Part shown: piece by piece, positions 3,561-61,745 of the stretch | Layout: every line of letters starts with the position of its first letter | Numbering within the stretch: the first letter of the stretch is position 1 | Source of the DNA: Bryoerythrophyllum caledonicum | Lineage: Eukaryota; Streptophyta; Bryopsida; Pottiales; Pottiaceae | Direction: 5' to 3' | Assembly (NCBI GenBank): GCA_963971425.1 | Contig: OZ020526.1 | Span: forward strand, 3,748,180-3,812,179 | DNA: 64,000 nucleotides | Program-made: the position numbers and the translations under genes | The notes under the pieces: model-generated | Database searches by the model: none | Seen by the model: only the letters and a program-made list of their open reading frames with translations | Told to the model about the DNA's origin: nothing

Positions 3561-3766
3561 CAATATCAGCATGGATGTGATGAGAAGTCGGATGTGGCGT
3601 CAAAGGAAGGGCGTGCTGAAAAGGGGCTCAAATCACCAGCAACTCGCCAGGCAGGAAGCTCTTTTGTCCCCTTGGCACCCGCGCGAAGAGGCCGATAGGG
3701 AGAGCAGTGACATTGACGCGGATAGTGACCAGAGAGACGAAGACATCCACATGGATACTCCGCATA

Positions 3767-4225
3767 CAGTCCACCCTCTTTAAATGTTACCTCCATAAGT
3801 GTTATTCCTCAATAAATGTTATGAAAAATCTCGCTCCCGAAAAATTAACACTACTAAGTGTTATATGTTAAGTGTTATGACATTATCCGCTCCCTCCTTT
3901 GTTAATTTCACCTCTATAAATGTTAAAGTTAGTAAAATCGGAGAAAGTATGGGGCAATAAAAAGGAGCATGGCTAGTAAAATGTAATGCAGGGTAGTAAA
4001 ATTGGCCAAGTAAGATGCAAATTAGGGTTTATGGTGATTCTTTAGGATGAAAATGTCTTAATGGATGAAAAAAATGAATGTAAAATATATTGGTGGATGA
4101 AAAATTGATGAAAAATGAATGGAAAATGGCTTAAAAATTAGGTCAAAACTCGATATGTGTTATACCTCGATAAGTGTTATGCTTTTGACCGCTCCCGAGG
4201 AGTATCATTTAAAGAGGGTAGACTG
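3767..4225. mobile_element. Pogo-like non-autonomous element (TA target duplication)
   Basis: Inverted ends start CAGTC(C/T)ACCCTCTTTAAATG at 3767 and, in reverse complement, at 4225. They are flanked by TA at 3765-3766 and 4226-4227. Subterminal copies of a TAAGTGTTAT-like motif occur at both ends. The CAGT start, CCTC-rich ends and TA duplication resemble pogo/Tigger-Lemi1 members of the Tc1/mariner superfamily. At 459 bp with no transposase it is a MITE. It sits inside the older LINE, so it inserted later. Confidence 0.75.
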
Positions 4226-30702: not shown

Positions 30703-31305
30703 TTAAATTATTTCCAGAGAGAATCTATTGTTGCAATATGTAAATTCAATGAATTGAATGGTGTAGTCTTGGTTAATGTGATCGGGTGGTGGATCATTAT
30801 ATGGTAAACCTCTAACACAAAGGATGTCCGGTTTGAGCCTAGCATTGCAATGGCACCTTTGAGTCTTACATGAGCATGGGAGTAGCCCAGGAGGGACTGT
30901 ATTTTCTTGTGGATTATTATTGAAGGTGCCGGCGTTCATTAATATAAAACATCTTGATTTGTTGTAGGAGGTGATTAGTTTTCGGACTTCCCATACCGCT
31001 TTATTATGTCTTTTAACAATTAGGGAGTGTATGTGGTGGTTTTGGCATTTGAGTGGAACATGAAGCCATGTGTCGGGGTCCGTTGAAGGGCATATGGGGC
31101 ATGTTATGGATGGGAATCTTTCTATTCCAAAGAAGAGTTGTTTACGGGCATTCCCCATATACTGACCAGTGCGGAATTTGATGAGGCATGTTATTTGTGA
31201 GTCTGAAATGATGGGATTTTTCCAAAAATTTGTGGGGGGTATCTTCTTTGGAAGGCCAATCTTCTTTTTGGAAGTAGTATGGGGTAGCATGGGCATGTTC
31301 GTGTG
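30703..31305 (-). pseudogene. LINE C-terminus: CCHC finger and restriction-like endonuclease
   Basis: An almost uninterrupted frame of about 200 codons starts right at the insertion duplication and ends at 30703. CPICPSTDPDTWLHV...C gives a C-x2-C-x8-H-x4-C-type finger. Later KPDILCVRG followed by IQFIEFTYC gives the KPD...E spacing of PD-(D/E)xK nucleases as in R2-type elements. This nuclease would nick the target for reverse transcription. The catalytic-type residues are intact. It is cut off from the rest of the LINE by the 9.8-kb element. Confidence 0.7.
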
Positions 31306-31315
31306 GGTCTTTGGC

Positions 31316-31375
31316 GGGGAATGCTATTTTGTGAGCGGTGAGCGGTGAGCGGTGAGCAGTGAGCAGAAATAAAAT
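31316..31375. repeat. Left TIR with tandem GGTGAGC repeats
   Basis: GGGGAATGCTATTTTGTGAGC is followed by four more (G/A)GTGAGC units and a GAGCAGAAA motif. Confidence 0.85.
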
Positions 31376-31450
31376 GGGTTTGAGCAGAAAAAAATGAGTT
31401 TAGGGTTAAGTTTACGTGGTTAAGAAATAGTTTTTAGCTTGGAAGAGGAT

Positions 31451-31547
31451 CTATGGCCGTGGATTATTTTACACTGTAATTGAAATTTTGGTTTAAAACA
31501 AAAGGGTGAATCATTATAGTTTTATGAAATGCCCTATGGCCGTGGAT
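31451..31547. repeat. Subterminal repeats CTATGGCCGTGGAT (left)
   Basis: Two exact 14-bp copies at 31451-31464 and 31534-31547. Near-inverse copies lie at 40846-40858 and 40911-40922 at the other end. Confidence 0.7.
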
Positions 31548-34500
31548 GAAATCTAGTGTATTTTTTAATAGGAAAATCCAGAGTTTGATGTGTTAGCATG
31601 ATCTATACTGTATTTGAACGTTGATTTAGAAACTTAGAATTTTGGGTTTAGGGTTTAGGATTTATAAAATCAAGATTGTATCTATATTGTACAATTATTA
31701 CAATACTCTCCAAAAACTACCTCTTCTTGGTTTTCTATACATTTTTTATATTGATATTTTGTATTAAAAAAATCATGTATTTATTTGCTCATCATAAAAT
31801 AATTCATTTATTTTCTTTGAATGTATTTTTGTATGTACGGTTTAGGGTCCTAGCAATATAGCGTGCGTCATACATTGTACATTCTATCATCCACCCTTGC
31901 CTTCTATGTGGTACTAAATTCATATTCATTACTCGATGACAAAGTAAAATAACAACCAAAACTTGAGTTTTTAACAACTGCCATTGCAGCTTATGTGTAG
32001 CCTTGTAGTGCATACTTAGCTTGAACAGTGGAATACGTATCTATCTGACAAATATGTACGCAGTTACAAATTCAAATAAGTTGAAAGTTTTGATTCAAGT
32101 GGTGCATTTTTTCGTGTCCAAATACTGAATAAGATGGAAACAAAATAAAGGGCATGTTTCAATATAAACTTGTTCTGGAACAATTAAAATCATATCAAGA
32201 ACAATATCCAATTTGGGTTGATCCTAGTTGGACTAGCAAATAAGATCTTACTGAATCAAAAATTAAAATTAATACACCAAAGGTACATCAATTAATACAA
32301 CTATTCCGGATCATCTGGACTACCCTCGCTTCCATTACCAACCTCTGCCTCTGCATCCATATAGTGGATAACATCTTTGTGATACCTCTGCCGTTGACGT
32401 GTCGGAGGTGGAGATTTTATAGTTGATTGTATCTCCGCAATTCTTTGAGTCCAGATGGGAAGAGAAAACGAAGAATCTAGAGATAACAGTAGCGGCATAG
32501 CTCTGCAAAGGAACAGAGAAATAATGAGGTTTAAGGTTCAAATAAAAACCGTACACATATTTTAACAACAACGAAGAAAACAAAAGAATGTGTTGAACTT
32601 ACGTACAAGAAGGAATATGACTATTTTTTTGCTTCTTCTGTGGTGGTTCTCTTTGAGTACGTCGCACATTCTTCCTATTCTCCATTACCAATTTCGCGTT
32701 TGCCTTTGGAATTAGCGGTGCAAGCAATGCTTGGAAAATCTCCGAGTTTTCTTCGAAGGCCAATATGTGTCGGCCCATTGATTGAGACACCCAAATAGTT
32801 GGTCCTAAAAGATACATAGCAATAAAAAAGTTAAAATTTAAGTGAGGAAAATGGAAAAGTTAAGTATACGATAATATTAAACAAATGCTTACCCGTAGAG
32901 GCATTCCAATCTAAAACAATATCCCCAACTTCTGTGAGGGATTCAAGAATTGTCTTCATGAGATCAACTGCTTTCTCCCGAGCCCCCCGCCATGGTGAGC
33001 CGCCATGCATGAGCTGTAATGCAACGTTCACGGGATTGAACAAGATGTCGAGCTTTCAAAGTAGAGAGCGAACAGAGAATTTCGAGACGACGGGAGCGTC
33101 ACAAACAAATAGCTTAATACAGAAACGCGTCCCCTGAGAAAAAAATAATAAAGAAAATTATGGATTAGATAGACGAAGGGGATGTTCAAGACTATAGCTC
33201 AGAATTATAAAGACATTTTGTATAGAGCTTACTTTCGCAGAAGGATCTCGAGACAAAACTAGAGGAAGCTCGTTCAAAGCCCACTAATCAATGAGGAGTT
33301 TGAAGTCGTATGTGGAAGCACAACCATCAATCTCAAGTTGTAACTTCCTATCATTCGGATGAAGCAGAAGCAACGTAACGTTGTCATGAAGATAATTGTT
33401 AACGAACTCAAAAATTGTATCAATATAACTCTCCGGCCTCGAATTCCATAAAGGAACGGCATCAATGGATTGAGAGATATCAGAAACTGGCAAATTCTAA
33501 GGAATGTGAGCCACTACAAGATCCGATCCGGTGTGTTTGCAATTTTCGTTTGAAACTGATCGCGTTCTACCTACACCAACCTACAAGAAAAAAAACCAAT
33601 GATTCTAAAATAACTGTGTAAGTGTGATTCAGCAGAAATTAAAATCAAATTAGGGTAACATAGTCTAACCTTTGAAATAAACTGATGGAGCTGCTCCCAA
33701 AGCTGCGGTGGACCTCCTATCTCTGAAAGAGACTGCATGATAGAAAACAGTGATGTATTTTTGATGAAACACTCCGATGAGACAGTTGGCACTGGAGCAA
33801 CAAATGACTCAAAAAATTGAAGTTGGCGTTGCTTGCGGTGTTGCACTTCCATCCTTATAACTTCAACATGGCTCGATCCTGCGGCTTGAGAGGACGCCAT
33901 TACTGGAGGAGAGTTCCATGCGTGGACCTCGTTCCTAGGCATATCTGTTGGATCATGCATTAAAGAAAGATTCAATATATCCCTCTCAGCAAGGGCGGTT
34001 GCAACTGCTGCATCTATCTCAGTCCATTTTGCAACCTCTACATCTTTGATGAGCTTTTCATTCTCAACCTTCAAAAGTCGCTTCTTTTTTCCCGACGTCT
34101 TCTCTTGGACTAGAACTGGTGGGGATGATGACTGCTCCACAATTTCAACCTCCGGCTCCTCTAATGCTGTTGACGTGGGAAGTTCTGAAACATCTACATG
34201 ACTTTTTAAAGAGGTCTTTCTCTGCATCTGGAACAAATTGGCAGAGCATTCCAATTACCATCCACCACCGTGTAAAACTTGAGTGGAATATTTCTTCTTT
34301 TGAAGCTCGGTAAAGATGCACAAGTCTGATAAAGGTTGAATCCACATTGATAGAAATGAAGGGCTCAGAGGTTGCTGAAGAACATTCTTAGGTATCAGCT
34401 CTCTCACAATCTACCTCAAGAGAAGAAATCTGACTTAAATAAGTGACTTCAAAGAATAATATATTAGAACTACAATAAAATAAGAGTCACAAGAGACATA

Positions 34501-34867
34501 TCTGTATAGATGTCGTTTGATGGCGAGGTCAGCTCCAGGCAACACACAAATTTTGTCAAAATGGACAATAAATTTGTCCTCTAACTGAAATCATGAATTT
34601 GAAAAGTCAGAAGTCATACTTAATGATTAAGATGCAAAAACTCTCACTAAAGTCATTATAAACCGATAATAAGTTTCAATACCTGTGCCCAAAAGGTTGC
34701 ACGATTGAGAAAGGAATCAAGAGCGCCATCTTTGAAATGCATAGCTGGAAAGCTATCCATAGTCAGAAACACCACACCGTCCAAATGAGACAAGGATATT
34801 AACTTATAGTAACACATCAAGCATACAATCAACTTGTGTATAAAAATAATTTCACCATCAATACAAT

Positions 34868-36570
34868 CCTCGTATACGAGGCTTGTACAGATTATTAAAT
34901 CTGGATGATTCAATTGGCAATAACATGAAAAATGAGTAGGCTAATGTCAACAGCAGATAGAGTCCTCGTATACGAGCTATGCCAATATGAGGTGATTAAG
35001 CTAATTATTTGAGCTCTATTATTATTACTTTCTACGCTCCAAATCATACAATGTGGAGAAATTAATTAAACTCTTAACTTTTTATAATATCAACTTTGTC
35101 ATCTTTAAGAAAGGCCTCGTATACGAGGCCTATTCAATGCTAGATCAACTAGATATATAACATTGCTATATTACAGGAGAAAATTAATTAACTTGGCAGT
35201 GCCACTCTTATCAAGCCACAATGAAAGAATTTGAGAAGCCTCGTATACGAGGTCACTTGTAATCTGATTGTTGCAGCTGCTTATGATAGTTTAAAAAAAA
35301 CTCTAAATTAAACCATGAATATTTAACTATGACAGAATAGAGCATGAAAATACCAATCATTCTAGAATTACAGGGCTTAGAATTCACCTCATCACTCGGT
35401 GTAGTAGTCACCAATGGTGGACTTTCCAACATGTGGTCCCGAAGATCTCCGCCTCCTTCGCCAAGATCAGCCTGCCGTGCCTACAATAATTAGCAAACAT
35501 ATCATAGAGAATAGGGCCTCGTATAGGAGGCTGTAGTGCTTGGCAACTCTAGAACTCTCTGGCACTGAATTTTTGGACTTTGGATTGCTCCCTGGTGACG
35601 AAGACCATGGTGAGCTAAGAAACCGTGTTTGTCTTGCAATAATTTGGTAGTTGACCATGTTGTTAAACCAGGAACACTTAATGCAAAAAATAAGCCCTCG
35701 CCTACGAGGCTTCAGTCCTTCAACAATATTGACCTCCTCGTTATAAAAATAAACCCTTTCTGGATATATGGAATGCAAAAAAACTGCCTCGAACGGCCCA
35801 GCTTAATATTCCTATTGTTGGTGGGAATGAATAACCTCTTGCACATTTGCTTCACTAAATGAGCTCTTGCAACATGGCACACGTAGATATACCAAATTCT
35901 TCAAACCAGTGCGTCACCAACTATATACTGAAATTAATTGAATGATGGCTCGAGCGCAGATGATAATCATATAAGCAAATTCATGAGAACCTAACTATAA
36001 GGCCTCGTGTACGAGGCATGGGGACGTACGGCTGCACGAGCTACAACATGATTCGAAATCAAGGAATTTTATTCCCCATATTGTTTTGTCGAATTCCTTC
36101 CCAACTGAAAAATAATTTTAGGACGTTCAAGACGACATAATTCCTGAACTACTTCTAAACCTGCACCTTGATAAAATTCTACCTTATTCCTTCTAACCAG
36201 CTTCCAAAGCTTCATCAAGGTCTGGAGAGGTGATCAAGGCATGATGTTGATCAACGCAGTTGCATGATGCAGTTCGTCGACTTGAAGATCAGTTTGTGTT
36301 CAAGACGATCATAGCAATTCGTGAACTTGAAGATCAAAGCAGTTTCTGAACTTGAACGTCAAAGCAATTCGTCAAGATGAAGATCAAAGTTGTTCGTCAC
36401 CTTCAATCTAAGATGTCTATTGACTTTAACGAAGGACGACTCGTACACGAGGTCTCCATCCTACCGGCTACTGGACATGCCAGGGCAGAGTGATCGGGAC
36501 AGTGGTCTAGGTCGTCGGAACAACCGAAGAGGTAGTCGGGACAGTGCAGTAGGAGGCCTCGTACACGAGG
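34868..36570. repeat. Nine dispersed copies of the palindrome CCTCGTATACGAGG
   Basis: Copies start at 34868, 34964, 35115 (extended to an 18-bp perfect palindrome), 35239, 35517, 35696, 36003, 36439 and 36557. Variants are CCTCGTGTACGAGG and CCTCGTACACGAGG. Spacing is 96 to 436 bp. They lie between exons of the methylase-like gene. Confidence 0.9.
36250..36405. repeat. Roughly 27-bp repeat (GAACTTGAAGATCAAAGCAATTCGT)
   Basis: Four imperfect units sharing CTTGAAGATCA and AATTCGT. Confidence 0.65.
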
Positions 36571-36764
36571 TCTCCTTCCGACCTTCTTCCAGACATGTCG
36601 GGCCTGAATGTTCGGGACAGTGGAAAAGGTCGTCGACACGTAAGCAAGGTAGTGGGGACAGGAGGAGAAGAAGTCGGAACAGACTACGAGGTAATCGGGA
36701 CAGTGCAATAAGGATAGGGACAGTGGGAGCGGGACAGTGGGATCAGGACAGTGCAGTAAGGATC
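36480..36764. repeat. CGGGACAGTG short interspersed repeats
   Basis: GGGACAGTG or GGGACAG recurs about ten times with irregular spacing between palindrome copies. Confidence 0.7.
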
Positions 36765-36876
36765 GTGACTGTGGGGTCTATCGTGTGCTGCAGAAATTAA
36801 ATGCCGGTGACTGTGGGGTCTATCGTGTGCTGCAAAGATTAAATGCCGGTGACTGTGGAGTCTATTGTGTGCGTAT
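36765..36876. repeat. 42-bp tandem repeat
   Basis: Units starting GTGACTGTGG at 36765, 36807 and 36849. The first two are nearly identical; the third is partial. Confidence 0.85.
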
Positions 36877-37184
36877 GCCAGTAACTGCCGAGGTCTATCG
36901 TGTGCACAATCACAGTGACCTTCAGTGCAATCAATGATGGTGACAATTCCTTGTTCGGTATGTGAGTTCAAGAGACGAAGAGAACAGGTTCATGAGCAAA
37001 CGAAGTAGAGATGTGGCTTTGGCGTGGACAGGCTTTTTCAAACCGATCTATCATCGTCGATAATAATCATCCATCCGCATTCGTTCACACGAAGAAGTCA
37101 ACGAGTAAACGGTGATCAGTGATCCAATTCAAGCGGGAATATGTACAGCCCAACATGTAGATCCAGCCGTCCAACATAACTTAA

Positions 37185-38125
37185 CCCCTAAGGTACCGTG
37201 ACAGTTTTACACCAAAATCACTCCAAAATGAATGGATTCTAGTGCAATGAATAAAGAAGTTAACAAAAACTTTGATTTTCAGTTCTGACCGTAGGATATC
37301 AATAAAGGCTTATTAAGTGATACATGTACAAAATTTCATAAACTTTGACCGCACGGATTGAAAGATTATAGTGTTTGAAGTCAAGCAAATGGTTCATTTT
37401 CTTCCCTGCGTTAGTGGATCAGCAGACTTTGACTTCAGTTAGTGTCAAAAATTTTCACTACACAAGGTCTAAATCTATTACCATCTTGTTAAGCATGATG
37501 TTAGCTCCTAACACACCAATTCTTAGAGGTAGAGACGGGGTGTAGCATATTCAAAACAAGTGTGCAAGGAGTGGAGGCTCAAAATTTGTTAATTCACACT
37601 TTAATTTTTTTTGAACTTAATATGTATTCGATTGATAATCCGAATGGTTAATAAGAAGGTTTACATTACATATTGTTGTGGAAAAAATAAAAAGTGAAAA
37701 ATATAAAGATACCTAGGTTTAATGTGGAAAAGAAGAAGTTTTTTGGTACCTTGCCCGACAATGAGTGACAATGTGTGAAAATGTTTGACTTGGGTTGGTA
37801 TGCTATTTTCACTAAAGACAAGAACTTTTTTTTGACAATATGAATGGAAATAATATTACTTGCAAGTACTGAAAATCTCACTTTCAATAGAGTGTCCTAT
37901 CAAAAGTTTTTGGAGGTGCCCGAGGTGCCCGCCCTCCCCATTTAAAATTCAAAACCCAATAACTTTTTCATCAAATGTCCAATTAGGAAAAAATTGTTTT
38001 CCCACTAAGGTCTTGGTAATGTCTTTCAATAGTAAAAATTTCAAAGAAGAATGTTGGAAATTGACACCATAGGAACCTGACCAAACTTTCAAAAAGCCCA
38101 TTTTTGACACTTGGTACCTTAGGGG
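37185..38125 (+). mobile_element. TTAA-family element, copy C (complete)
   Basis: 941 bp with ends CCCCTAAGGTACC...GGTACCTTAGGGG and flanking TTAA at 37181-37184 and 38126-38129. Best-preserved copy of the family. It lies inside the 9.8-kb TIR element, so it inserted later. No transposase. Confidence 0.8.
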
Positions 38126-39266
38126 TTAAGAAGCCTAAAAATTTTGTGTACAATGCCTACTGCCACATAATTTCTTGTACCTAGCCTCAAAATTTCGCCA
38201 TAACATGATGCATGAAATAGATGTTTTTTTGCCTAAATACTACATATTGGTTTGAAAATCAGTTATGCAAAGAGAAGCCTTAATCATGAACAAATACGCT
38301 CATGAAATGCAAGTACAAGGATTTGAAATTCTTTTTTATAACAAATACGACTTTATTTAATTTTTTGTGAAGATGGCATTAAATGGGACCTTGATAGAGT
38401 AAGGACTTTTCACGTTCCTAAATCAAACACACACTTCCTTCACTGTGAAAGGTCAACCTAAATTTGTGATCCATGTATTTGATGCAGATGAGTTTCTATG
38501 ATCAATACTTTTTCATTTACGTATTTCAGGTGATCGGTGTAGTGAGATTAGGGCCGTGCTATATTAGTTATGAATGTGAATTGAAAATACATCTAACTTA
38601 ACTATGAATAGTGAAAGCTAACCTCTTCTCTCGAAGGCCTTGTTTGTGGAGATGATATACTACCCGATATGTTGTGGCACTGTGCTTCGCTTCCTCCCGC
38701 AACTTTTGCCTGACAAACCCACGAGAAAGAAGTTCAATAGAGAGGCTTAAAGAACTTCAATATCACAGAGTACACACTTACATTGCATGGAATAACATTT
38801 GAGAAGAAATTCAAAGACAACTTTGGGGCTAGCATGTAACCGACCCTTCATACAAATATTTTCAACAACGCTATTCCCATCCTAGATCTCTGCAACTCCT
38901 TCCGACTTGAAAACAAAATACCTTGCTTTCTTCATCTCCTCTTCTTCTCACATGATGGAACAAGAGATTGGTAGCTAAATCCTAGTCATTTGAGATATGC
39001 CAGATTTTCCATCTCTCTCAACTTATCAAATTCGACAATTTGTGATTTGAAGATGATGCTCATGGAAATCAACAGAAATCCAATGTCACCACTACACTTT
39101 TTATTTCTATATTCAATAGTGTAAATTTAGCCAAAGCTTATCATAGCTATATAGCTGTCACCCGTTGTCATTTATCATTATTCATAATTAGAAGCAGAAG
39201 GTAGATATTCCTATAGGATCAGAGTTTGACTCACATCGCCCTGAAAAAATTAGCGTCTCTCGACCC

Positions 39267-40311
39267 ATGAAGAGAACACGCTACGGTGGTCACGCCACCA
39301 TTGTTGATCTTACTTCAGAAGAGGTGCCTTCCCTTGCCGTACAACTTAATCCACTTGAAGTGCAGCGTAGTCCACATGAAGAGGCAACAACAACTGTCCG
39401 AATTCCATATGATACAAAGGCAGTCCTTGAGTTGTCTTGTAATGAGAAGGAGTGGCATATAGCGCGGCTTCCGAAGACCTCAGTGAAAGCATGTTTTGCA
39501 CAACACGCTATCACAAAAAGAAAATGCGTGGCGAAAATAGTTCAGTACTACAAAGCTATTGCTGCTCCTACTTACAGAGGTATGATGACGTCATACAATA
39601 AAAACAAGGTAGAGCAAATGCAATTTTTCTTTTGCAATGATGATATTGAGCATTGTGTGAAGGGCACTAGGCGCAAGTGGGTTGTTGCAAAACCGCATGT
39701 GCCAGAGATTTGGCTCGTAAAGCTTGGTACTAATCTTACACAAGAAGAAGTGTTTGCTCTCGAACATGCTGGATTTCGCTTGGCTGAACGACCGGCCTTT
39801 GCACTACATCAGTTGTTCTGTGATTTCAATGGTCTCATCAATTTTGATGACTTCCCGGCACCAAGTTCTCCAGACGAGTATCCAAAGCGCAGATTTGGGA
39901 AGAACATTCGACGAAACTCCAAGGCACCAACAATAAAACATTACAACAGCTACGCATCAGCGCTTTCAATAAACGGTAAAATTCTGAAAGCCACTCTACT
40001 TCCTTCTCCAACACTAGGTTCAATTGTATCATTTAAGTCTTGTCAAGGATCGAAATCATCCCAGTATCTCATCACTATTGGTCAATTTCCAAGTTGTGAT
40101 TGTCCTTTCTTCAAGGATATGGCAGCAAAGTCATTTAGGTAAGCGTGGTCAATGGGTAAATTGCAAACATATGTATTATGTTTTTACTAGGCTTTGTAAT
40201 CTGCTTCCTAAAGTAGATCAGTTTATCCATGCACCTAGTTTCAGCTACAACAAGATCAAACGCGTGTTAGAAAACTTACAACCACAGTGTCACACTATAA
40301 GAACAGTGTGA
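39267..40311 (+). pseudogene. SWIM zinc-finger protein of the TIR element, one frameshift
   Basis: A 291-codon frame begins at 39267 and shifts by one base near 40133 into a second frame that ends at 40311, together about 345 residues. The SWIM signature is CDC (near 40097) followed by NCKH (near 40163): CxC...CxH, split by the frameshift. Upstream are a conserved-looking FFFCNDDIEHCVKGTRRKWV segment and a hydrophobic stretch. SWIM domains bind DNA or protein and occur after the DDE core in MuDR transposases, but no DDE core is visible here. It is transcribed away from the methylase-like gene and could share a promoter with it. It might be an accessory transposition protein; that is inference. 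Confidence 0.7.
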
Positions 40312-40845
40312 CAAATAGTTCTACTGTACTTCTTATTCCTTTTCTAACAGAAATGGCAGTGAGACTAAAAGGGCCACCGTGTAATATTGTCGTACATGCG
40401 TCTCCCCTACTGTATTATTATCATCACTGATATTCTCTTACAAAGTATCATCCTTCAACTAAAAAAACCAAAAATGATGCATGAATTAATTTCAAACCTA
40501 ATTAGACAAATAGTTCTTCTAAATCCACCATTGATTTCTTTCTATATGTTTCCAAATTCTAGTCTGCACTTTTAATACTTTCGAGGTAAGGGAGAATTAG
40601 GTTGTAAACAAAAATTTAAGTTCATCATATATGCAATCTTCTCCGCATCGCATATTTCTGTTTTGTGAGAGGGAACAACATGGCTAAACATCAACTTAAT
40701 ATTGATACAATTATGTTTTTGATGGTACATTGTTAAAAAAGAAAGTCTTTAAGTATTTAAAACATGCATGATTTAAGGATATTCTAACAGAATATATAAT
40801 TTCTTTCATTCTTTATATCTGTAACTAATTAAAAATATATTCATT

Positions 40846-41102
40846 TCCACGGTTATAGGCTCATATATTCTTCCACAACATGAGGCCAAAGTTTTAACCA
40901 ATCTCCTTTTTCACGGTTATAGGTTCATTCATTTTCCACGATACTGACCAAATTATGATCCCAAAATAGTCAAACTTCTTATTTTAATGTACATCAGCAA
41001 ATTTTGAAACTAATGTCCATGTATTTTAAGAAAAATCCTGCCAAAGACCCTAATTTTTCTGCTCACGGCTCACCGCTTTCTGCTCACAAAATAGCTTCGC
41101 TC
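40846..41102. repeat. Right subterminal repeats and TIR of the 9.8-kb element
   Basis: TCCACGGTTATAG at 40846 and TCACGGTTATAG at 40911. Then TCTGCTCACGGCTCACCGCTTTCTGCTCACAAAATAGC at the end, inverse of the left TIR. Confidence 0.8.
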
Positions 41103-41112
41103 GGTCTTTGGC

Positions 41113-41530
41113 CTTTTTGTGTGTTTTTTCTCGGCCTTCTTTTGCTAGTTTATCTGCTTGTTCGTTGCCATCAATATTGGCATGGGCTCTCACTTTGTGG
41201 AGGGTTGTGATTTGTATTCGGATTTGTAACATTTGGACCATTGACATTAATATGGTTTGGTCGGGGTGGCTATTGTGAAGAGTAGGGTGTGTTATTTGAG
41301 TGTTTAGTAGGTAAAGTGCATTTATACAATCGGTGAATATATGTGCGGGCTCATTATTGTATTTTGTCCGGGGCTGATTTGTTCTGGTGGTTTAAAGGAG
41401 CCAGCAGTATAGTAGCTATGTGCGGGGTTAAATTTTGGTGTGGTATGAGTTGGATAGTTTTGGAGAGAGGGTGGTGTGATGGAGTAGTTTAGTGTGTTGT
41501 TGACATAGTTTAGTTTTGACCTGTTTTTGC
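41113..41530 (-). pseudogene. LINE RNase H domain
   Basis: The minus strand reads IFTDCINALYLLNTQI near 41365 and HANIDGNEQADKLAKEG near 41190-41140, the RNase H D...GN..AD core. It ends at the insertion site of the 9.8-kb element. Stops lie upstream. Confidence 0.65.
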
Positions 41531-41531
41531 T

Positions 41532-42983
41532 TTAGTTTACGGGGGTTTGTGTAGGTGTCGGTGGGGTTCGTTTTGTATATAGTCTGTGTATGCTTAAATT
41601 TTCTGTTATGGAGGTAAGTTCGGCAAGTTGTTCTAGGGTGCCAAGGGTTTGATTTTGATGATGGACACATAGTATTTGTAATGTAGATGGCTCTATTCGG
41701 GGTTTTCTTAACTCGGGTGGAATAGTTGGTTCTTCGTATGGTATTGAGTCTGCCTCAAATAATGCGATGATATGGGAGTCTGGAAATGGGTTTGAGTGTT
41801 GGTTGTTGTTTTGGTACCACTTGTTGTTTGGTGTGATGATGATTGTATTCGTGTTGTTAGGATCATGTTTGGCGGCAAGTCGAGCCCAGTGTATTGCTTG
41901 TTCCATTTCTTCTTCGTTGTGGGGGTGGGCTATACCGTTACCGATCCATTTGTAGTCGAAGGCCTTTCCCAAGGATCCGAACATTTTGTCTCTTTCATAG
42001 GGTGAGTAGAATTTTTTTAGCTTGGTAGAACATGTGACCGGGGAAGAAAAGTATGATTGTTCAATGTTAAAGGATGAGATTAGTGAGTCTAAGATGGTTG
42101 TGGGTATTGTGTATTGCACATTTTTGAGGGGGTCATTTTTTGGTATCTGGTATTTGTACCTTTGGTATAGCCAAATTAATTCGGTTTCAAAGGGTTGGGT
42201 TGTTGGTTCGATGTTTGTAGGAGTTTGTAGTTTTGTATTGTATTGATTCCATAGCCATTGGAGTAGAGTAACGGGGATAGTGTGCAAATGTCGGCCATTT
42301 TTTTCATATAAGTGTGCTTGATTGTTATCTATTTTAATTGTGTTTGAGAGTGTAAGGATATCATTTTCGGGATTGCATTCTGTTCTATAGATGTTTAAGA
42401 GTGGAATAATTATGGGTGGTGTAACGGACCTTGGATCTGAGAATTGTTCTTGGGGGTGGTGGGCTAGGATGATATCCGAGTAACTTTTGTTTTGGATCTT
42501 TTGGTAGTATTGTTTTAATTTTACAATGATATGTGTGGAGGTATTGGTGTCGTGTCGTGGGAAGAGATCTCTTTGGGGGAGCCATTTATTGTATGTATTA
42601 TCATTGTGTTGCCATTGGCATAGATATTTTGTGTAGGTATTTTGTATGTTATTTGTGTCTTTGTGTTGGATATATTTATGGTGTATGATGTTATTAATGG
42701 GATATGTGGTAGGGCTTTTGGGGATGTATGTTGGGGGATGGAGATGGTATGGATGTGGAAGGTTAGGGGGATTGGTTGGTGGGGGGATATTTCTTGGGAT
42801 GATGCTATTGTTGAGGGTGGCGAATGAATCTTTAAATATATAGGAGTATGAGTCTATGTTACAAGGAATATGACATGTAGTGGAGCATGTTGGGATGCAA
42901 AAAAGTTGTTTAGCAACATTTAGAGCACTTTTTATTAATTTGGATGGGGTGAAGTGGTAGGTTTTGAAGTCTTCATTTTCCAT
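41532..42983 (-). CDS. LINE polyprotein segment with an unassigned domain (483 codons open)
   Basis: The longest intact frame in the window outside host genes. The first roughly 270 residues are Pro/Asn/Thr-rich. From about residue 290 an ordered block follows: LGKAFDYKWIGNGIAHPHNEEE, AIHWARLAAKHDP, NTIIITPNNKWYQ, FPDSHIIALFEADSIPY. The pattern (HPH/NPP-like box, helix, ITPN strand, W, strand) is reminiscent of adenine-methyltransferase-like folds, but no clear catalytic motif is present. It lies between RT and RNase H in the LINE. I do not recognise it with certainty. Confidence 0.5.
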   Translation of the reverse strand: MENEDFKTYHFTPSKLIKSALNVAKQLFCIPTCSTTCHIPCNIDSYSYIFKDSFATLNNSIIPRNIPPPTNPPNLPHPYHLHPPTYIPKSPTTYPINNIIHHKYIQHKDTNNIQNTYTKYLCQWQHNDNTYNKWLPQRDLFPRHDTNTSTHIIVKLKQYYQKIQNKSYSDIILAHHPQEQFSDPRSVTPPIIIPLLNIYRTECNPENDILTLSNTIKIDNNQAHLYEKNGRHLHTIPVTLLQWLWNQYNTKLQTPTNIEPTTQPFETELIWLYQRYKYQIPKNDPLKNVQYTIPTTILDSLISSFNIEQSYFSSPVTCSTKLKKFYSPYERDKMFGSLGKAFDYKWIGNGIAHPHNEEEMEQAIHWARLAAKHDPNNTNTIIITPNNKWYQNNNQHSNPFPDSHIIALFEADSIPYEEPTIPPELRKPRIEPSTLQILCVHHQNQTLGTLEQLAELTSITENLSIHRLYTKRTPPTPTQTPVN

Positions 42984-43286
42984 GATGTGTGTGCCATTAG
43001 GTAAGGTAATTTGGTTTAGTTCAAAAATATTTTTAGAAAGGAGTTTTTGTAGAAGTTTTTGGGAGAGTTGGGCATTGAGTGTATTGTGGTTTGTTGTTTC
43101 TTGGCGCCATATTATTTCTAGTGGTGTAGGATTAATGAGGAAGTTTGGAAGCGTACTTTTAAGGTGGACTTTAGCTATGTGTTTTAATAAGAAGAAAGTT
43201 CGTGTTATTGGTGATCTTATGCAATCACTTTTTTAAATTATGGGTATGTTTTCGGCACCACCGTATTGGGTAAGGACATAATGAGT

Positions 43287-43565
43287 TTATCCATTGTATA
43301 TTTTTCCAAGTCTACCCTTATCGTTTAAAACATTTTGTAGTTGTTCACCTATACATCGGAGATATGCATTTTTGAGGGAAAAAGCTCCAAGCCCAAATAG
43401 GTTATGTGGGAGTTGGGTTATTGCACTTGACATACATTTTGGTAATCCACATATAGTTTTTTGTATGGCTATTATTTTTTGATCAAGTTTTTTGATAGCT
43501 GGCATAGAGTAAGGTACACTGTAGAAACTATATGCCACACCGTGGCGTAGTACGGTATCAACCAT
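43287..43565 (-). pseudogene. LINE RT C-terminal region (thumb side)
   Basis: VLRHGVAYSFYSVPYSMPAI and CGLPKCMSSAITQLPHNLFGLGAFSL read as the conserved segment following RT in Dualen-like and related LINEs. Separated from RT by a frameshift near 43600. Confidence 0.55.
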
Positions 43566-43600
43566 TTTTATTTTTTGTTTTATGGTGGCCGGTTATGTTG

Positions 43601-44872
43601 TTAGTTCTTTGCATTGTTTGATAAGTTTTGTGGTTGTAGTGAGGGAACAAGATTTGTACCTAAATATATGTATGGTTCATTTTGGTGTAGTATAGGAATC
43701 GGTTGATTATGGTTATTGATATTAGAGGTTTGCATTAGGGCTTTGAAAGTGGTGGGGTTCAGTTTGGATTTGTTTGGGCATCCAGTAGCGGCGCATTTTA
43801 GGACACCTACGTCCATACCGGTCCATTTGCAATATCTATCAATTTTATTTAGTTGTATTTGGATAGATTTAATTTTGTTAGTTATGGCGGCGAGGTCATA
43901 TGCGTATGCGGCAGAGTTTATTGTGACTTGTGATGTACCAAACGTGTACCCATTGTTACCTCGTTCTAGCCATCTGAGTAGTGGTTCTAAGAAAATACTG
44001 AATAGGTATGGACCAAGGGTGTCCCCTTGTATAGTTCCTCTTTGAATGGGTATAGGCTTTGTTCTCCCAAAGTATTCCCCAATATAACAAGTGGTTGATT
44101 GGGAGTATATGTTTCCAACAAGTATAGTTGCATCTTTTGGGTAACCAAGATCCATCATTATTGCTAGTAGTCGAGCATGGTCTATTGAGCCAAAGGCATT
44201 TTTAAAGTCAACGTATAATATGTATGTATCTTGGTTAGTGAATTTTGTGTCTTCTAGTGCGGCTATTATAGTTTGTATTTGTCTAGTGGAACTTCTTTCT
44301 GCTCTAAATCCTTCTTGACTATCATGTAGAATTTTGAATTTTTCACCGTATGAGGATAGTATAGAGGTGAGTGTACTGGTGTATAGTTTATATATTGTGT
44401 TAGTGAGTGCAATTGGCCTATGGTTGGGTAGTATAGATGGGTTGCCTTTTTTGTATAATAAAATTGTTGTACTTGATTTCCATGAGGTCGGTATTTGTTT
44501 TTGTTTATAGCAGTGATAGAAGAATAGGAATAGTAACATATGAAATCTTGGGGGCATGTTTTTGAGTATTGAGTTTGATATGCGATCAGGGCGTGGGGCT
44601 TTGTTGTTACCAAGATTTCGAAGGCATGTGTCGTATGTGGCTCTGTTGAAGTATGTATGTAGTAGGATTTTTGGTTCGCCTCGTTTGTCAAGGGTAAATT
44701 CGTCAAGTTCATGCCAAGGATATTGGCGTACTGCACATGTACATTCAGTTGGATGTTGTGGTTGGTAATTACATGTTGGTATTGTTGGTCTATTGATTTT
44801 TGTTTGTTGGTTGAATATTTCATTTGCAATGTCTTCGGGGCTAGTTAGAATATTGTTATGTTGATTTGTCAT
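43601..44872 (-). pseudogene. LINE reverse transcriptase (Dualen-like element)
   Basis: 423 codons with NNKAPRPDRISNSILK, NHRPIALTNTIYKLYT, DSQEGFRAERS, LYVDFKNAFGSIDH and RGTIQGDTLGPYLF. The catalytic box reads AYAYDLAA where YADDL is expected, so the active site is altered. The order of fingers and palm motifs is that of non-LTR RT. The frame is otherwise long, which suggests moderate age. It follows the APE region and precedes the unassigned domain. Confidence 0.85.
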
Positions 44873-45589
44873 ACAGTCTATTGGCGGAGATTCTAGGTTT
44901 TTGAAGACTTTTCTATTAATTTTTTTATAGCTAATTTCGTATAGTTGTCTGTATTTTGAGATGATTTTTTTAATGTTGTCTTTGGTGTATTTTGAGGTTA
45001 CTTTCCGGGCTTGTATGTTGGCGTTTTTTGCAATTAGTGCGATATCTTTTATCCATGTGTCGTGGGGTAGATCTAGAGGCGGTAGGGTAGGGATTTGGGT
45101 GTTTTGTAGAGTTAGGAGTTCGTTGCATATGGGGTGGTTACGCCATTGGTGGTTGTTTTTTATTATTTTGATGGCTTTCCGTATAACATGGTATGTAGTT
45201 AGGTGTTGTTTCCAAGTTTTAGAGAGTTTGCGGGGTAGATATCCGCCTTGTTGAGAAGTTTTGTTTGTTAGTTGAGGTATTGGGTGGGCTCTACAAATTT
45301 CTTCTAGTGCGTTAGTGATTTCATTGATAAGTTTGTCTAGGGTTTGGCATGCTTCTTGCCATTGTATTTGTTATAGTTGACTATTATTTTTAAGAGTGTT
45401 TATGAGGGAGTCTATTTGTGTGGAGTTTTTTTCAAAGAATTTTGTGTAGAATTTTTCTATATTATCTTTTGGAATGGGGTTGAATATGCGTATAGTGTCG
45501 TTGCTTTGGATTGTAGGAGTTCTATTTATTAATGTGTTGTTTGGGATGTGCAGTTGTATAGGTGAGTGGTCCGAGTTGAGAATAATATC

Positions 45590-46340
45590 CTTGTTTATTG
45601 TAGAGGTGCATTATGTATTGTTGTTTGTATTTATATAGAATCCATCTATTAGACTCCAATCACTATAATTATAGCCACCTTGTCTAGAGAATTGTGTATC
45701 AGTATTGATGTAGGTAAAGTTTAAGTTTTCTGTGAAGCGGCGCCAATGGTAATCAATGGGTTGAGTAGGGTGTTATGATTTCCATTTTGGCGGCCAATTA
45801 GTGTTATGTCTCTGTTAAAGTCTCCACGTAATAAGTATGTGTGGTTGGGATTATTATTAATTTGAGATGTAATGATGTTTTGTATGTTTGTGATAAATCT
45901 AGTATCTTCAGGATGAGATGGCATATACATGTGAAAGATTAACCATGGTTGTAGTGGGTGACTAGTAATTTTGATTATTTGAATGTAAGGTGATATGTGC
46001 ATTGTGGTAGATATTTTGTTGATGTTGCCCGGGAAGGCATATTTTTTGTGTATTAGCGTAAGGTGGCCACCACGGCCCGGTGTGTATGGTCTCCGTTGTT
46101 GAATGCATCTTGTAAGTGCATGTGTATTGTTGAAGATGAGTTTATAGTCTTGGAATATATTTTGTATATATTTTGTAGATTTTGTGGCGGATAATATTAT
46201 TTCTTGTATAACTATGAGGGCTGGTGGTATGTCTGTGTTCGTAACCAGAGTTTGTAAACTGGGAAGGGCAGTGTTTAGAGAGGAGGCATTCCATGTGATT
46301 ATGTATGTGTTTTCTTGATTTGATCTAATGTTTTGATTTC
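45590..46340 (-). pseudogene. LINE APE-type endonuclease
   Basis: TWNASSLNTALPSL near 46310 is the N-terminal APE strand. VIQEII near 46230 holds the catalytic glutamate, GGHLTLIHKKY lies near 46070 and LLRGDFNRDI near 45835-45810 is the GDFN catalytic loop. The frame has stops near 46003 and 45720. It would nick DNA for target priming. Confidence 0.75.
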
Positions 46341-46383: not shown

Positions 46384-47169
46384 TCATATAGGATCTAAGC
46401 ATTTTAGTGATTCGTTTATGAGATTGTTAGGGAGGTAGGAGAATTTTTGTTTTATTGTTTCGTTTGAGGGAGGTGTGGTTTGATTATGTAAAAAGTTATA
46501 TAGTTCCTCATGTATTGAGTTGTCATGGTCTATAATACTTTGGTTGTCTTCAAGGAACTTTATGTATGGGTGTGGAATGTGAATGTATCGTTCTGGTGGG
46601 TTTTTTAAGTTTAGTAGAGTTTGTAGGAGTGTATTGGTCCATGTGATTATGTTCAGATTTTGTGGGTTTAGGAGATGGTTACATTTATCTATTTGTGGGT
46701 GAGTAGTGACTATTAGGGCATATAGAATGTGGGGTGGTGGATGCGTATTTTTTTGTTGTATGTATTGGGCAATGTTCGGGTGTGTAGTGTTATGTGTGTG
46801 GTGTAATGTATGTGTGTTTTTTAAGAAAGGTGTGAAGGATTTTGCAATGTGTCCATATTCTGGTTGTAGTTTTATGGTGTTAGGTATGAAGTATATTTTG
46901 GCATTTTTCTTATGTAATGTAGGGTGTCTTTTTAGTATATTAGGCATGGGCCCCGGGTTGGTTTCTATGTCTCCTCCTAGAAGTAGTAGGAGTTTGTGGT
47001 ATATATGTTTAGTGATGTGTTTTAGAGTTTTTGTTTGTTGTATAGTTATTTGAGGCTCTGTTATGGTTTCAAAGTCTTGTTTGTTTGGGGGGTGGGTGTT
47101 TGTTTTTTGTATGTGGTTAGTGATTTTTTCGTTATTCATTTTCAAAGTGGGTGTATTTGTATTTGTCAT
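46384..47169 (-). CDS. LINE first-ORF protein with 2A-like motif
   Basis: A 261-codon frame. After about 70 N-terminal residues a Leu-rich run leads into GDIETNPGP at 46948-46974, immediately followed by Met. This matches the D(V/I)ExNPGP consensus of 2A/CHYSEL peptides exactly, which make the ribosome skip a peptide bond between G and P. The remainder is A/C-rich coding for His, Thr, Pro and Asn, with no known domain. 2A-like motifs are known near the N-termini of some non-LTR elements. The frame ends at a stop at 46384, just before the APE region. Confidence 0.7.
   Translation of the reverse strand: MTNTNTPTLKMNNEKITNHIQKTNTHPPNKQDFETITEPQITIQQTKTLKHITKHIYHKLLLLLGGDIETNPGPMPNILKRHPTLHKKNAKIYFIPNTIKLQPEYGHIAKSFTPFLKNTHTLHHTHNTTHPNIAQYIQQKNTHPPPHILYALIVTTHPQIDKCNHLLNPQNLNIITWTNTLLQTLLNLKNPPERYIHIPHPYIKFLEDNQSIIDHDNSIHEELYNFLHNQTTPPSNETIKQKFSYLPNNLINESLKCLDPI
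46948..46974 (-). other. 2A-like ribosome-skipping motif GDIETNPGP
   Basis: Nine codons matching the 2A consensus, preceded by LLLLLG. Confidence 0.85.
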
Positions 47170-47367
47170 TAACTTTTTTTGTGTCCATGTGTTTATTTGT
47201 GTAGTTGTTTTTGTTTTACTAGAGGTATTTAGGAATGTGTATGTTTGTTTGTGTATTTTTTTGGTTGTGTTTGGCCACGTGTGTATGTGATTATTATGTA
47301 TGAGGATATTTGTATATGGATTTATGTTAGTATTTGAAGGGGTGTTGATGTGTCTTTTAGGGAGATT

Positions 47368-49594: not shown

Positions 49595-52360
49595 CTACAT
49601 CCAACAACCACAATGTAGAGCCAAGAGACCATTCATGAGCTTTTGCCGGCTCTTCCTGAATTTACTAAGCAACACCTCTTGAGCTTCGAGAGACTCGAGC
49701 AACAAGGCTCCTTCACAAAACCTGTGTAAAACATTCTGAAACGTCCCCTCTGACGCTGCTTCATTAGAAGCTGTTTCATAACCAAAATGACCAACTGAAA
49801 GATGCCGTAACCAGTCCAACCAGGCTAACCCTTCCTTCTGAAAATTCTTGACTACAGCATGATAATCAGCCGATTCATGAACTTGTTGGAGCATGAGACG
49901 AAACATCATGTGATCTGGATTTTTTTGTCTCAAGCTGATACATGCTTTGCGAAAGAGATGAGAGCTGGTACCTGCATTCCTGATGGCCACATGGAGAAGT
50001 GGTTCACAATTCATCTCGTCCGTGTTGCAATTGTTGTAGGACCATAGTCGAAGTGCAATATGCAATAAGCCTTCCCACCTACAAGCCCCACCAGAACATC
50101 AGCAAAATTAGTAACAGCTAAAGCAGACAAATGTCTACATTGATATGGTTTATCAAGGTAGACTCAAGGCGGCGGGAACTTTTTCTAAATTGAGTTTAGA
50201 GATTACCAAGCTCTTCTCTACATAAATAGGATTCTAGTTGAGACACCACGAAGCACTTCATTTATCTATTAAAAGAGAGGAAGGGAAGTCAATTGATGAG
50301 AAGAGCGGCATCTTATTGAGTGACTTTGGGAGACTTTACAAATAACTGAAATCAGTCTACAGAATTCAATGATGTAGTTTACCAATGTAACAGAAGACAG
50401 AGAAGGCTTCCCCTTACGTTGAAATGACAAGCATCCTGTCAAGATGAGGCAGTGACTTACTCAAATGCAGGTTCAACCTCCACACCGAATGAAAGGTGAA
50501 GGGAAGCTCCGTGCCACTCTGAGATGTTGTTGCTTTTGGGAGCAGCTTTCACGTTTCCAGCTTCTGTCCGAGCCTCATGTAAGAATCCTCGTGGAACATA
50601 CAGGACGTCCCCTTCCTGGAGGTCATAGCGGGTAGCACAGTCTTTGTTTACCAAATCTGAGGAGATTTTTGTGAAGGAGTACAAGCGAGGGAGCAGCTCA
50701 AGAGGGGGATACACGTCCCATCTCTTGTGGCCCCTGAGCTGACAAACAAACACACAGTGGTCGTCAAAGTGAACGCCGAGGCCCTGCGCTCCAGGCGGAG
50801 TCAAATAAAAATTGGCTCCCACTGTCACTTGCCCCAGCTCCACCCCCAGAGCCATGGCAACTGCAGCGATTTCAGGCCACCGGAACTGCAACCCTCGAAT
50901 TACAACAGTGTTTCCCGAGGTGTAAGCATTCACGCAATCCCCGGAGGTGACAGATGATCCAGCTACCGGGTAAAGAATCTCTGACCCCGACTTGCACTGC
51001 AAGAGAAGGATGTCCTGGTTAAACACAGGCAACAGACCGAGCTCCTGCTCCATGTCTCCGTACAGAACCGACATGTCAAATTCATCTGCAGAGGCAGGAG
51101 GACAGGCCACCATTCCATCCACCAGAAGCTCCAGCATCCGAGTTGGACTGCTACTTCCAGCAATTTTCTCTAAGAATCCAGACAGCAGCCCATGCGCGGT
51201 GGTGGTCACTGGAGAGAGCTCCCAATGCTTCTGGAAGAAGTTTTTCTCATCCTCTCCGAAGATTCGCCTTGCATCCACAGGATTATATGCATCTACCTCT
51301 ACACTAGTTTGCATGGCCAATCTCATGATCAGCTTCGCAAGATGGTTCCTCCTGTTCTGAGTCCACAAAAACTCTCCATCAACGATTCGCCAGAGGCTTT
51401 GTAAGGTGGGAAGCACGTCGACAGACTTCACATCATGAAATAAGGTGTTCACTGCAGCTAAAGCTAGATCGAAGAGATCGGTCGCTTCGTCCAGAGAAAT
51501 GTTCACAAGGAAGGTGAGGTCATGGTCACCTATAGTGTCTGAAACCTTGGTAAGCCTATTCTTCAGCATTTCAGCAAGGAGAGAGACGATCCGCCTGTCA
51601 AGGTCGGAAACAACACAAGCAAGAGCTCAGAAAACATGTGTAAAAGAATCACGTCCGCTTATTGTTTTCTGTTAGAAGATGCCAATGCACGAACCCTAAA
51701 TGCAAAATTCTCACTGATGGCTAATCATCACGAAAATTAATTCCTCACTCACTTGCATTTCAGAAGAGATGGTGGTCCTTACATGAGCTGATGTTCCAGG
51801 CCGGCGACTCCTCGCAGAGCATCGCAACCAGATCCGCTAGTTGCTACATTCAGAATAGAATGAATGGCGATCGGAAGAACATCGAACTGTGATGTTCTGT
51901 ACAGCAATCGAGCCAATGCGGTCAAGATCTCCTTCTCCTTCGCCAGACGGCAGCTGACCTCGTACGAGGAAATCGCCAACACACCCGCGACTTGAGCGCT
52001 CTTCTTGGCAACTTTGGACGACCTGCGAGAGAAGGACTCGATCAGAACACCGAATTGGTTGCAGAAAGCGGGAGAGGGTGGGACTTACGAGTGCGACAGG
52101 AGCGGAGGCAGGAGCTGGAGGAAGCCTGCGTCGCAGAGAGCAGAAGAGGAAGGCGGCAGCAGCAGCAGGCGTCGAAGATGCGTGAGAAGGAACGAGACGG
52201 AGGATTGTTGCGCTTCGAGTGCTTGGCGGATCGCTGCAACAGTAGTCACTCCAGGTTCGCAATCTATGGCAATCTGTTTCCTCGACTTCTTCAGAGGAGG
52301 AGAAGAAGAAGAAGAAGACGACGAGGAAGACGAGGTCAATAAGGAAGAGTCCGACTCCAT
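49595..52360 (-). CDS. JmjC/cupin ribosomal-oxygenase-like protein (NO66/MINA53 type), four exons
   Basis: Exons 52360-52089, 52022-51783, 51594-50461 and 50078-49595 join by GT-AG introns in frame to 709 residues plus stop. Residues 6-20 are a serine run followed by basic PPLKKSRK, a possible nuclear signal. The N-terminal half is helical. The JmjC core is in exon 3: HFDDH gives the Fe(II) HxD, QLRGHKRWDVY follows, and EGDVLYVPRGFLHEA gives the distal His. HLSFGVE and a winged-helix-like tail in exon 4 match NO66/MINA53, 2-oxoglutarate oxygenases that hydroxylate ribosomal proteins in the nucleolus. All three iron ligands are present. Longer at the N-terminus than typical NO66; plant members share such extensions. 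Transcript evidence would fix the first exon. Confidence 0.85.
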
Positions 52361-52364
52361 GGAA

Positions 52365-52612
52365 TCAAACCTAGGGTTTAGGGTTTTTGGTTGGAGATGC
52401 TTTCAAGTGACATGAAGAGGGAGACGAGGACGAAGAGGGAGACGAGGACGAAGAGCGAGATCAAACCTAGGGTTTAGGGTTTAGGGTTTAGGGTTAAAAG
52501 ATGCTGTCAAAGTGCATAATTCTCACATGAAAAGAGGTCGAGGAGGAAGAGTGCAATTCCATGGAATCCAAATCAGGGTTTAGGGTTTAGGGTTTAGGGT
52601 TTAGGGTTTGAC
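52365..52612. promoter_or_regulatory. Telo-box-like TTTAGGG runs upstream of the oxygenase gene
   Basis: TTTAGGG runs (AAACCCTAAA on the gene strand) occur at 52372-52387, 52466-52496 and 52577-52610. The first begins just 5' of the start codon. Telo-boxes are known promoter elements of plant ribosomal-protein and translation genes. Confidence 0.55.
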
Positions 52613-60809: not shown

Positions 60810-61745
60810 CTTAAAAATTTGTCCACCACCCTCTTGCAGCCAAAACAACTGCAATTTGATCAGGCATGCTAGCATACAATCTCTTACGCTCTTCTACACT
60901 AGTAGAAAAGAAAACTTCTTGCACTTGCTTCCATAATTGAAGAATACCATAAGGAGGAGTAGGATAGGAATTCAATTGCCGTTTGAGTGAAGCTCATACA
61001 TTTTCGATCGGATTTAGGGTAGGGGACTATGGAGGCTACTCTAAGACACAAAATGATTGCCTTCCAAACCAATATGAAATAATTTTTGTTGAATGAACAC
61101 TAGCATTGTCCTCTTGGAAAATAACTTCCTCAACATTGAATTCGTGTATTGTGCAATGCCCCTAATCCTTTAGAAGTCAAACAACTCCAAAGCATAATGC
61201 CGCCTCCACCATGTTTGACAGCACGTACATAAATGTTTTCTTTGTCTTCAATACAACACCAAGCTCTTCCATCTAAGCTAAAACGACACATTTTGGTTTC
61301 ATCACTAAATACCACCCGCTCCCAATCACTCACTGTCCAATCTTTGTGATTTTGAGCATATTGAAACCTTGCTTTGATGTTCTTCTCAATTGAGAAAGGC
61401 TTCTCAATTTTTCTAGAATAAGGCAATCCTTGTTCTTTCAACGCATTCCTCAAGGTATTATCATACATTTCTATACTTGTCTCTCTTTTCAACACTTTTG
61501 CAACCTCTGTTGCAGTTTCTAAACCTCCAACAATTACTAAACGTAAAACCGCTTCTCCCACTTTGTAAGGAATTTAGGACGACCTCCTTTAGACAAGTCT
61601 AAGTTGTGAGATTGATGCTTAATATCACTCTATTAACTGTAGATTGTAATAGACCCAAGCTTCTTGCAATCTTTCTACTGCTATTTCCTTTTTCTACCAA
61701 AGCTACAATATTTTCTTCTTTGTCTGTAGAAAGATTGCCTCATCC
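60810..61745 (-). pseudogene. Tc1-type DD34E transposase, broken
   Basis: The minus strand reads an N-terminal helix-turn-helix (IVALVEKGNSSRKIAR near 61700), a GRPK hook near 61585, first catalytic Asp in VVFSDETK near 61310, second Asp in FQEDNASVHS near 61115 and Glu in NPIENV near 61010. The spacing between the last two is 34 residues, giving DD34E. Two in-frame stops and a shift with a deletion of about 40 codons near 61140 inactivate it. Tc1 proteins cut and paste DNA at TA sites. Terminal inverted repeats were not established. DD34E Tc1 elements are unusual in plants. Confidence 0.8.

Follow-up and report, generated by a model that had tools for sequence, protein, structure and literature searches.

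An internally deleted copy of a large, Mutator-like transposon family in Bryoerythrophyllum caledonicum and its putative ParB-like/methylase-like second gene

What is the 9.8-kb insert that interrupts a long interspersed nuclear element (LINE) in the moss Bryoerythrophyllum caledonicum, and do its two apparent genes account for its presence there? The insert occupies positions 31316-41102 of a 64,000-nucleotide stretch of contig OZ020526.1 (forward strand, positions 3,748,180 to 3,812,179; assembly GCA_963971425.1), the whole of which is referred to here as the window. An initial annotation, made from the letters alone, had proposed an undescribed class II family, perhaps Mutator-related by the length of its target-site duplication, with a methylase-like gene and a SWIM gene as divergent cargo and no known transposase. 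Following a search of the genome (437 Mb, 894 contigs), we consider it very probable that the insert is non-autonomous, an internally deleted member of a large Mutator-like family with terminal inverted repeats (TIRs), and that complete members of this family (~15.5 kb) have two genes, one for a DDE-type transposase in which a cysteine-rich finger lies in the N-terminal part and a SWIM-like one at the C-terminus, the other a conserved, divergent ParB-like/methylase-like gene (gene 1).

The insertion itself is real. It is flanked by GGTCTTTGGC at 31306-31315 and 41103-41112, identical at 10/10 positions, and its TIRs (31323-31359 and 41059-41095) span 37 nt with 89% complementarity, with GGTGAGC-type subterminal repeats lying inward of them at both ends (terminal regions 31316-31401 and 41052-41102); duplication, TIRs and subterminal repeats had all been named in the initial annotation. 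When the flanks are rejoined with one duplication retained, a single minus-strand LINE frame stays open for 150 amino acids (aa) over the junction. The LINE frame does resume after removal of the element, as initially claimed. Beyond these 150 aa the reading continues in a different frame (both frames assigned to the LINE by eye), and the interrupted LINE copy therefore seems to have a separate, later frameshift.

Two divergent coding regions do lie within the element, a set of spliced minus-strand exons and a plus-strand open reading frame (ORF) at 39192-40142, but both genes are broken. The minus-strand gene, with introns of the GT-AG type, matches PF01555 at 28.7 bits (cut-off 26.7), and its methylase-like exons (~34414-33670, 33580-33233, 33133-32893, 32804-32603 and 32502-~32300; 32300-34414 overall) contain three in-frame stops. 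Aligned with L028, a copy in which the gene is open, the window gene shows six stops and 13 frame-disrupting gaps, some of which may reflect alignment across its deletions. The plus-strand ORF goes on in another frame at 40135-40308, and the frameshift splits a CxC...CxH motif. This "SWIM gene" is the C-terminal stub of a transposase (39192-40308, plus strand, frameshift near 40135) and not separate cargo, the first transposase exon and the start of the second having been lost at a deletion junction at 39192/39193. Likewise, the "methylase" is the end of an opposite-strand second gene, gene 1, of at least 1102 codons. Further minus-strand remains of gene 1 are partly deleted middle exons at 34499-34751 (window 34545-34751 corresponds to E10 3581-3787), a stretch at 34919-35522 that adjoins the deletion of the ParB-like exon and includes a more upstream exon at ~35388-35471, and a candidate 5' exon bounded by AG/GT at 38620-38740, picked out by eye.

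The family is numerous. The 135-bp 5' end has at least 41 matches at 40 places in the genome, the window included (two adjoin at C10:2.0195 Mb), a lower bound with 40 of 793 candidates scored. The initial annotation had staked its proposal on other copies sharing both the TIR and the cargo, and of the 20 other 5'-end copies with the highest scores, 19 have the methylase-like gene; the sole exception among these fetched copies, L013, is a 983-bp deletion derivative. Target-site duplications of 10 bp were found in all six copies with both ends read (10/10 identical in the window, L009, E16 and L013; 9/10 in E10 and E23). Of four copies that we followed out to 20 kb, three are complete, with the same ends as the window element (E10, 15,564 bp; E23, 15,513 bp; E16, 16,518 bp). 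The fourth, E12, fits less well: a retrotransposon follows in its 20-kb stretch, and neither a transposase nor a 3' end was found there. A search of viral contigs yielded neither relatives of the transposase half nor copies of a TIR pattern.

All three complete copies encode a two-exon, stop-free protein of 1199 aa, so that the transposase missing from the initial description was present in the window all along as its C-terminus. Pairwise ratios of non-synonymous to synonymous substitution (dN/dS) among E10, E23 and E16 are 0.24-0.26 (three pairs). The protein has a cysteine-rich finger at residues ~285-375, which we take to be WRKY-GCM1-like, followed by aspartates in MMFDHVK (527) and MADSAQ (594), CLFHW (625), a glutamate in CNLAET (723) and a C-terminal CDCPF...NCKH (1129-1153); the DDE, WRKY-GCM1 and SWIM labels are tentative, being assigned in part by eye. 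A protein search with the C-terminal half returned 146 relatives (source labels jgi, ena, lgn and ncbi). Among 18 aligned relatives, CxC...CKH is present in most and CKH in all 18. Of the profile searches suggested at the outset for the two genes, that of PF01555 exceeded its cut-off, whereas the SWIM profile (PF04434) gave no match for the window stub or E10 and reached 2 of 10 relatives below its cut-off (12.0 and 15.9 bits vs 19.6). As an aside, a related transposase subfamily occurs at eight places of identical score (684.7 bits; C1:8968159 and seven more, among the matches listed), which suggests very recent amplification.

The window copy is therefore best described as an internally deleted, non-autonomous member of this TIR family, and its history can be followed through a second copy, L009. 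The two are 98.8% identical over 9.8 kb and have the same deletions and three common stops in the methylase region, yet they lie at different sites, each with its own 10-bp duplication. The derivative thus moved after both its genes were broken, which implies that it was mobilised in trans by the transposase of another copy. In such a scheme the transposase would bind the GGTGAGC end repeats, cut and paste at the TIRs and insert with 10-bp staggered cuts.

What gene 1 contributes is less readily answered. In L028 its twelve exons join into 1102 codons that are open to the final stop; no start codon was found in this splicing. Across 19 copies, leaving aside L013, which lacks the gene, and L022, where an insertion has displaced it, the exons of three (L028, L010 and L023) are free of stops and frameshifts when compared with L028 only. 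As judged from motifs and profiles, the product would join a degenerate, N4/N6 DNA-methylase-like domain to a ParB-like region. A search with the 193-aa upstream, ParB-like exon of an open copy identified homologues in other collections (9 of 34 candidates, 45-79% identity), and WDGNHR..AW, which we take to be a ParB-like motif, is invariant in all nine. A protein search with the broken methylase gene of the window found none among 7325 candidates, over a length range (247-787 aa) that misses exon-sized predictions. The name "ParB-like" rests on this motif and a published analogue, and two results tell against it: searches of Pfam, NCBIfam and the PDB sequences gave gene 1 no match to ParB, and a PDB fold search with a poor model returned nothing below E 0.81, the only ParB-named match standing at rank 48 (E 7.4). 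The AlphaFold models were poor throughout (mean predicted local distance difference test scores of 43 and 53).

The methylase-like half raises the question of whether gene 1 works as an N6-adenine or N4-cytosine methylase and marks element DNA in this way. PF01555 is matched above its cut-off (28.7-32.6 bits vs 26.7), a four-copy profile matches structures of the adenine methyltransferase DpnA (E 0.0026), and the same idea has been proposed for algal relatives (PMC12477816). However, both profile matches span only the C-terminal part of the domain, and motif IV is altered. In place of a catalytic DPPY-type motif IV we read DIPE in 15 of 19 copies, DILE in two and HIP-stop in two (the window and L009), and DIPE again in L041 (register by eye), while motif I reads DWNASTG in all 19 (register by eye). 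An alternative placing of motif IV at IPSW/VPLW was dropped, as DIPE is the closer fit to DLIxxDPPYN and recurs in L041. We thus regard an active enzyme as possible but doubtful, and retain the description of gene 1 as a degenerate methylase-like protein.

Gene 1 may help the element to find or protect its own DNA. Nine palindromic 14-mers (CCTCGTATACGAGG and variants, up to two mismatches) lie mid-element at 34868-36570; every one of those in the window falls within the element, and 0.04 would be expected in the whole window. E10, E23 and E16 have 10, 11 and 9 (up to three mismatches), with none in the remainder of their 20-kb stretches, and L040 has a different repeated palindrome, GCCGATATCGGC. 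We infer that gene 1 serves the element as an accessory for self-recognition or against silencing: it would bind element DNA, possibly at these palindromes, and mark or shield that DNA through its methylase-like fold. The most specific version of this idea, in which the ParB-like region binds the internal 14-mers, the altered fold is a non-catalytic or re-purposed shield against host silencing and each subfamily has its own palindrome (CCTCGTATACGAGG here, GCCGATATCGGC in L040), seems unlikely to us as a whole, and the L041 stretch, which has no repeated palindrome, counts against it.

The second question concerns the superfamily. Mutator-like elements (MULEs) are described as having TIRs, duplications of 8-11 bp and a DDE transposase with a zinc finger, and SWIM in many clades (PMC6446971). 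The present family agrees in its 10-bp duplications and its 37-nt, 89% inverted repeats with subterminal repeats, and by eye its transposase can be read in the order D, D, CxxH, E, with CxxH between the second D and the E. On these grounds the Mutator relationship guessed from duplication length is borne out as a likeness. Several results pull the other way. The MULE profile PF10551 has no match to the transposase at E 10, so that Pfam does not recognise the catalytic region, yet elsewhere in the genome the profile has 138 matches, none of them at the three full copies. When a deeper profile was compared with two MULEs of the genome, the D and CxxH came into the expected register, but the match was weak (hhalign E 0.034, probability 1.5%), and 56 and 61 of 500 shuffled controls scored as high; a shallower comparison with three genome MULEs, the strongest included, did not align sensibly (E 0.52 and 0.26). 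Given the PF10551 result and these weak alignments, we write "Mutator-like" and not "proven member". The same results, together with the sub-threshold SWIM matches in 2 of 10 relatives and none for the window stub or E10, would suit a DDE superfamily of its own, so far undescribed and lying near MULE/hAT/P, that acquired its 10-bp duplications and SWIM-like finger by convergence. Against this stand a duplication length inside the MULE range (PMC6446971), the residue order with its SWIM-like C-terminus and the plausible D/CxxH register of one alignment, and we give a separate superfamily little credence beside a Mutator-like one.

It remains to be asked whether gene 1 belongs to this Mutator-like family at all. 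It is under purifying selection, with dN/dS of 0.25 over 17 copies (the window and L009 set aside in addition to L013 and L022), and by part the values are 0.15 for the ParB-like exon, 0.19 for exons 4-7, 0.21 for exon 8 and 0.27 for the methylase part. Many gene 1 exon windows show a third-position excess. In both of the two subfamilies examined (transposase identity 57% and 59%) gene 1 is in the same divergent position at 25-54% identity, the methylase part of L040 lying beyond the fetched stretch. Genome-wide pairing was counted among the matches listed, that is the best 88 of 4225 transposase candidates and the best 150 of 1755 ParB-like exon candidates. A ParB-like exon lies within 20 kb of 38 of the 88 transposase hits, and in 38/38 cases it is upstream on the opposite strand, 7.1-13.7 kb away (~1.2 expected by chance). 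The evidence is not uniform, however: the first two exons are unconstrained (dN/dS 0.96) and exon 12 is little constrained (0.61), the value is 0.55 in one pairwise comparison of open copies against 0.15 and 0.16 in the other two, 50 of the 88 transposase hits have no listed gene 1 partner and only 37 of the 150 ParB-like hits have a listed transposase partner. The L040 locus is among those 50 unpaired hits and does carry gene 1, so the listed matches undercount the pairing. We conclude from the purifying selection and the conserved pairing that gene 1 belongs to the element. A chance host-gene capture of the Pack-MULE type, functionless for the element, is very improbable: several MULEs have acquired extra ORFs (PMC6446971) and gene 1 is broken in 16 of the 19 copies, but neither the selection on it, nor its presence in two subfamilies with transposase identity below 60%, nor an arrangement that is the same in 38/38 cases is what such a capture would leave.

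A gene of this kind on a DNA transposon is not without precedent. Sola1-1_Ec32 of Ectocarpus is a giant transposon of 21.5 kb in which a protein of 1104 aa that combines a ParB-like domain with an N4/N6 DNA-methyltransferase domain is encoded antisense to the transposase, and similar ParB-methyltransferase proteins are mentioned for green and red algae (PMC12477816, 2025). As ParB-methylase accessory genes have thus been published for algal transposons, the present family is a variant of a known theme, and of the initial claim of an undescribed family with a methylase-like protein it is the many-copy TIR family that stands. The likeness lies in the accessory gene opposite the transposase; Sola1-1_Ec32 is filed under Sola, whereas here we have 10-bp duplications, a SWIM-like transposase and another host (compared by description only). 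With MULEs, including MuDR with mudrB, the family shares TIRs, duplication length, a putative DDE transposase with a zinc-finger-like motif and an extra ORF; extra ORFs, some antisense, occur in several MULEs, and SET in 14 members of one oomycete clade (PMC6446971). It differs from them in a transposase that PF10551 does not match, and "methyl" occurs 0 times in PMC6446971. In the VANDAL/VANC system of Arabidopsis a protein binds repeats in the transposon's own non-coding DNA and removes silencing marks (PMC10398659), a likeness drawn by description only, the second protein here being methylase-like. Retrotransposons carrying cytosine methyltransferases (PMC5890265) also place a DNA methyltransferase gene on a transposon, but theirs are C5 enzymes on retrotransposons. 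What the present family adds is that an accessory gene of a known type sits on a Mutator-like element, has a changed motif IV and shows signs of having long been inherited together with it. This extends the ParB-methylase type, described for algal transposons, to a Mutator-like family whose open copies lie in a large assembled genome. It thereby becomes testable whether proteins of bacterial type serve DNA transposons in recognising or marking their own DNA.

Among the other features, the interrupted LINE continues on the minus strand on both sides of the insert, its 3' part at 30703-31315 and its 5' part at 41113-46338, the latter with an RNase H-like region (by eye), PCIF1_WW, RVT_1 and an endonuclease-like ORF (PF14529, below cut-off). 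The PCIF1_WW domain (41532-43232, minus strand) is above cut-off at 2.3e-13 and a chromo domain is below it, to our knowledge an unusual combination in a LINE. Two of the fetched 5'-end stretches, L014 and L032, contain retrotransposon-like ORFs (by eye), in L032 a gag-pol-like ORF of 1170 aa. An Rfam scan (gathering threshold) and a tRNA scan of the window found none. On the minus strand of the window are also an ORF at 46384-47367 that includes LLLLLGGDIETNPGP, presumably a 2A-type skipping motif by its resemblance, a JmjC_2 protein gene at 50457-51626, probably a host gene, and a Tc1-like transposase fragment (HTH_Tnp_Tc3_2) at 61130-61573. Finally, short TAGGGTT/AGGGTTT arrays at 52468-52609, which we take to resemble plant telomere repeats, lie in a chromosome-internal position.

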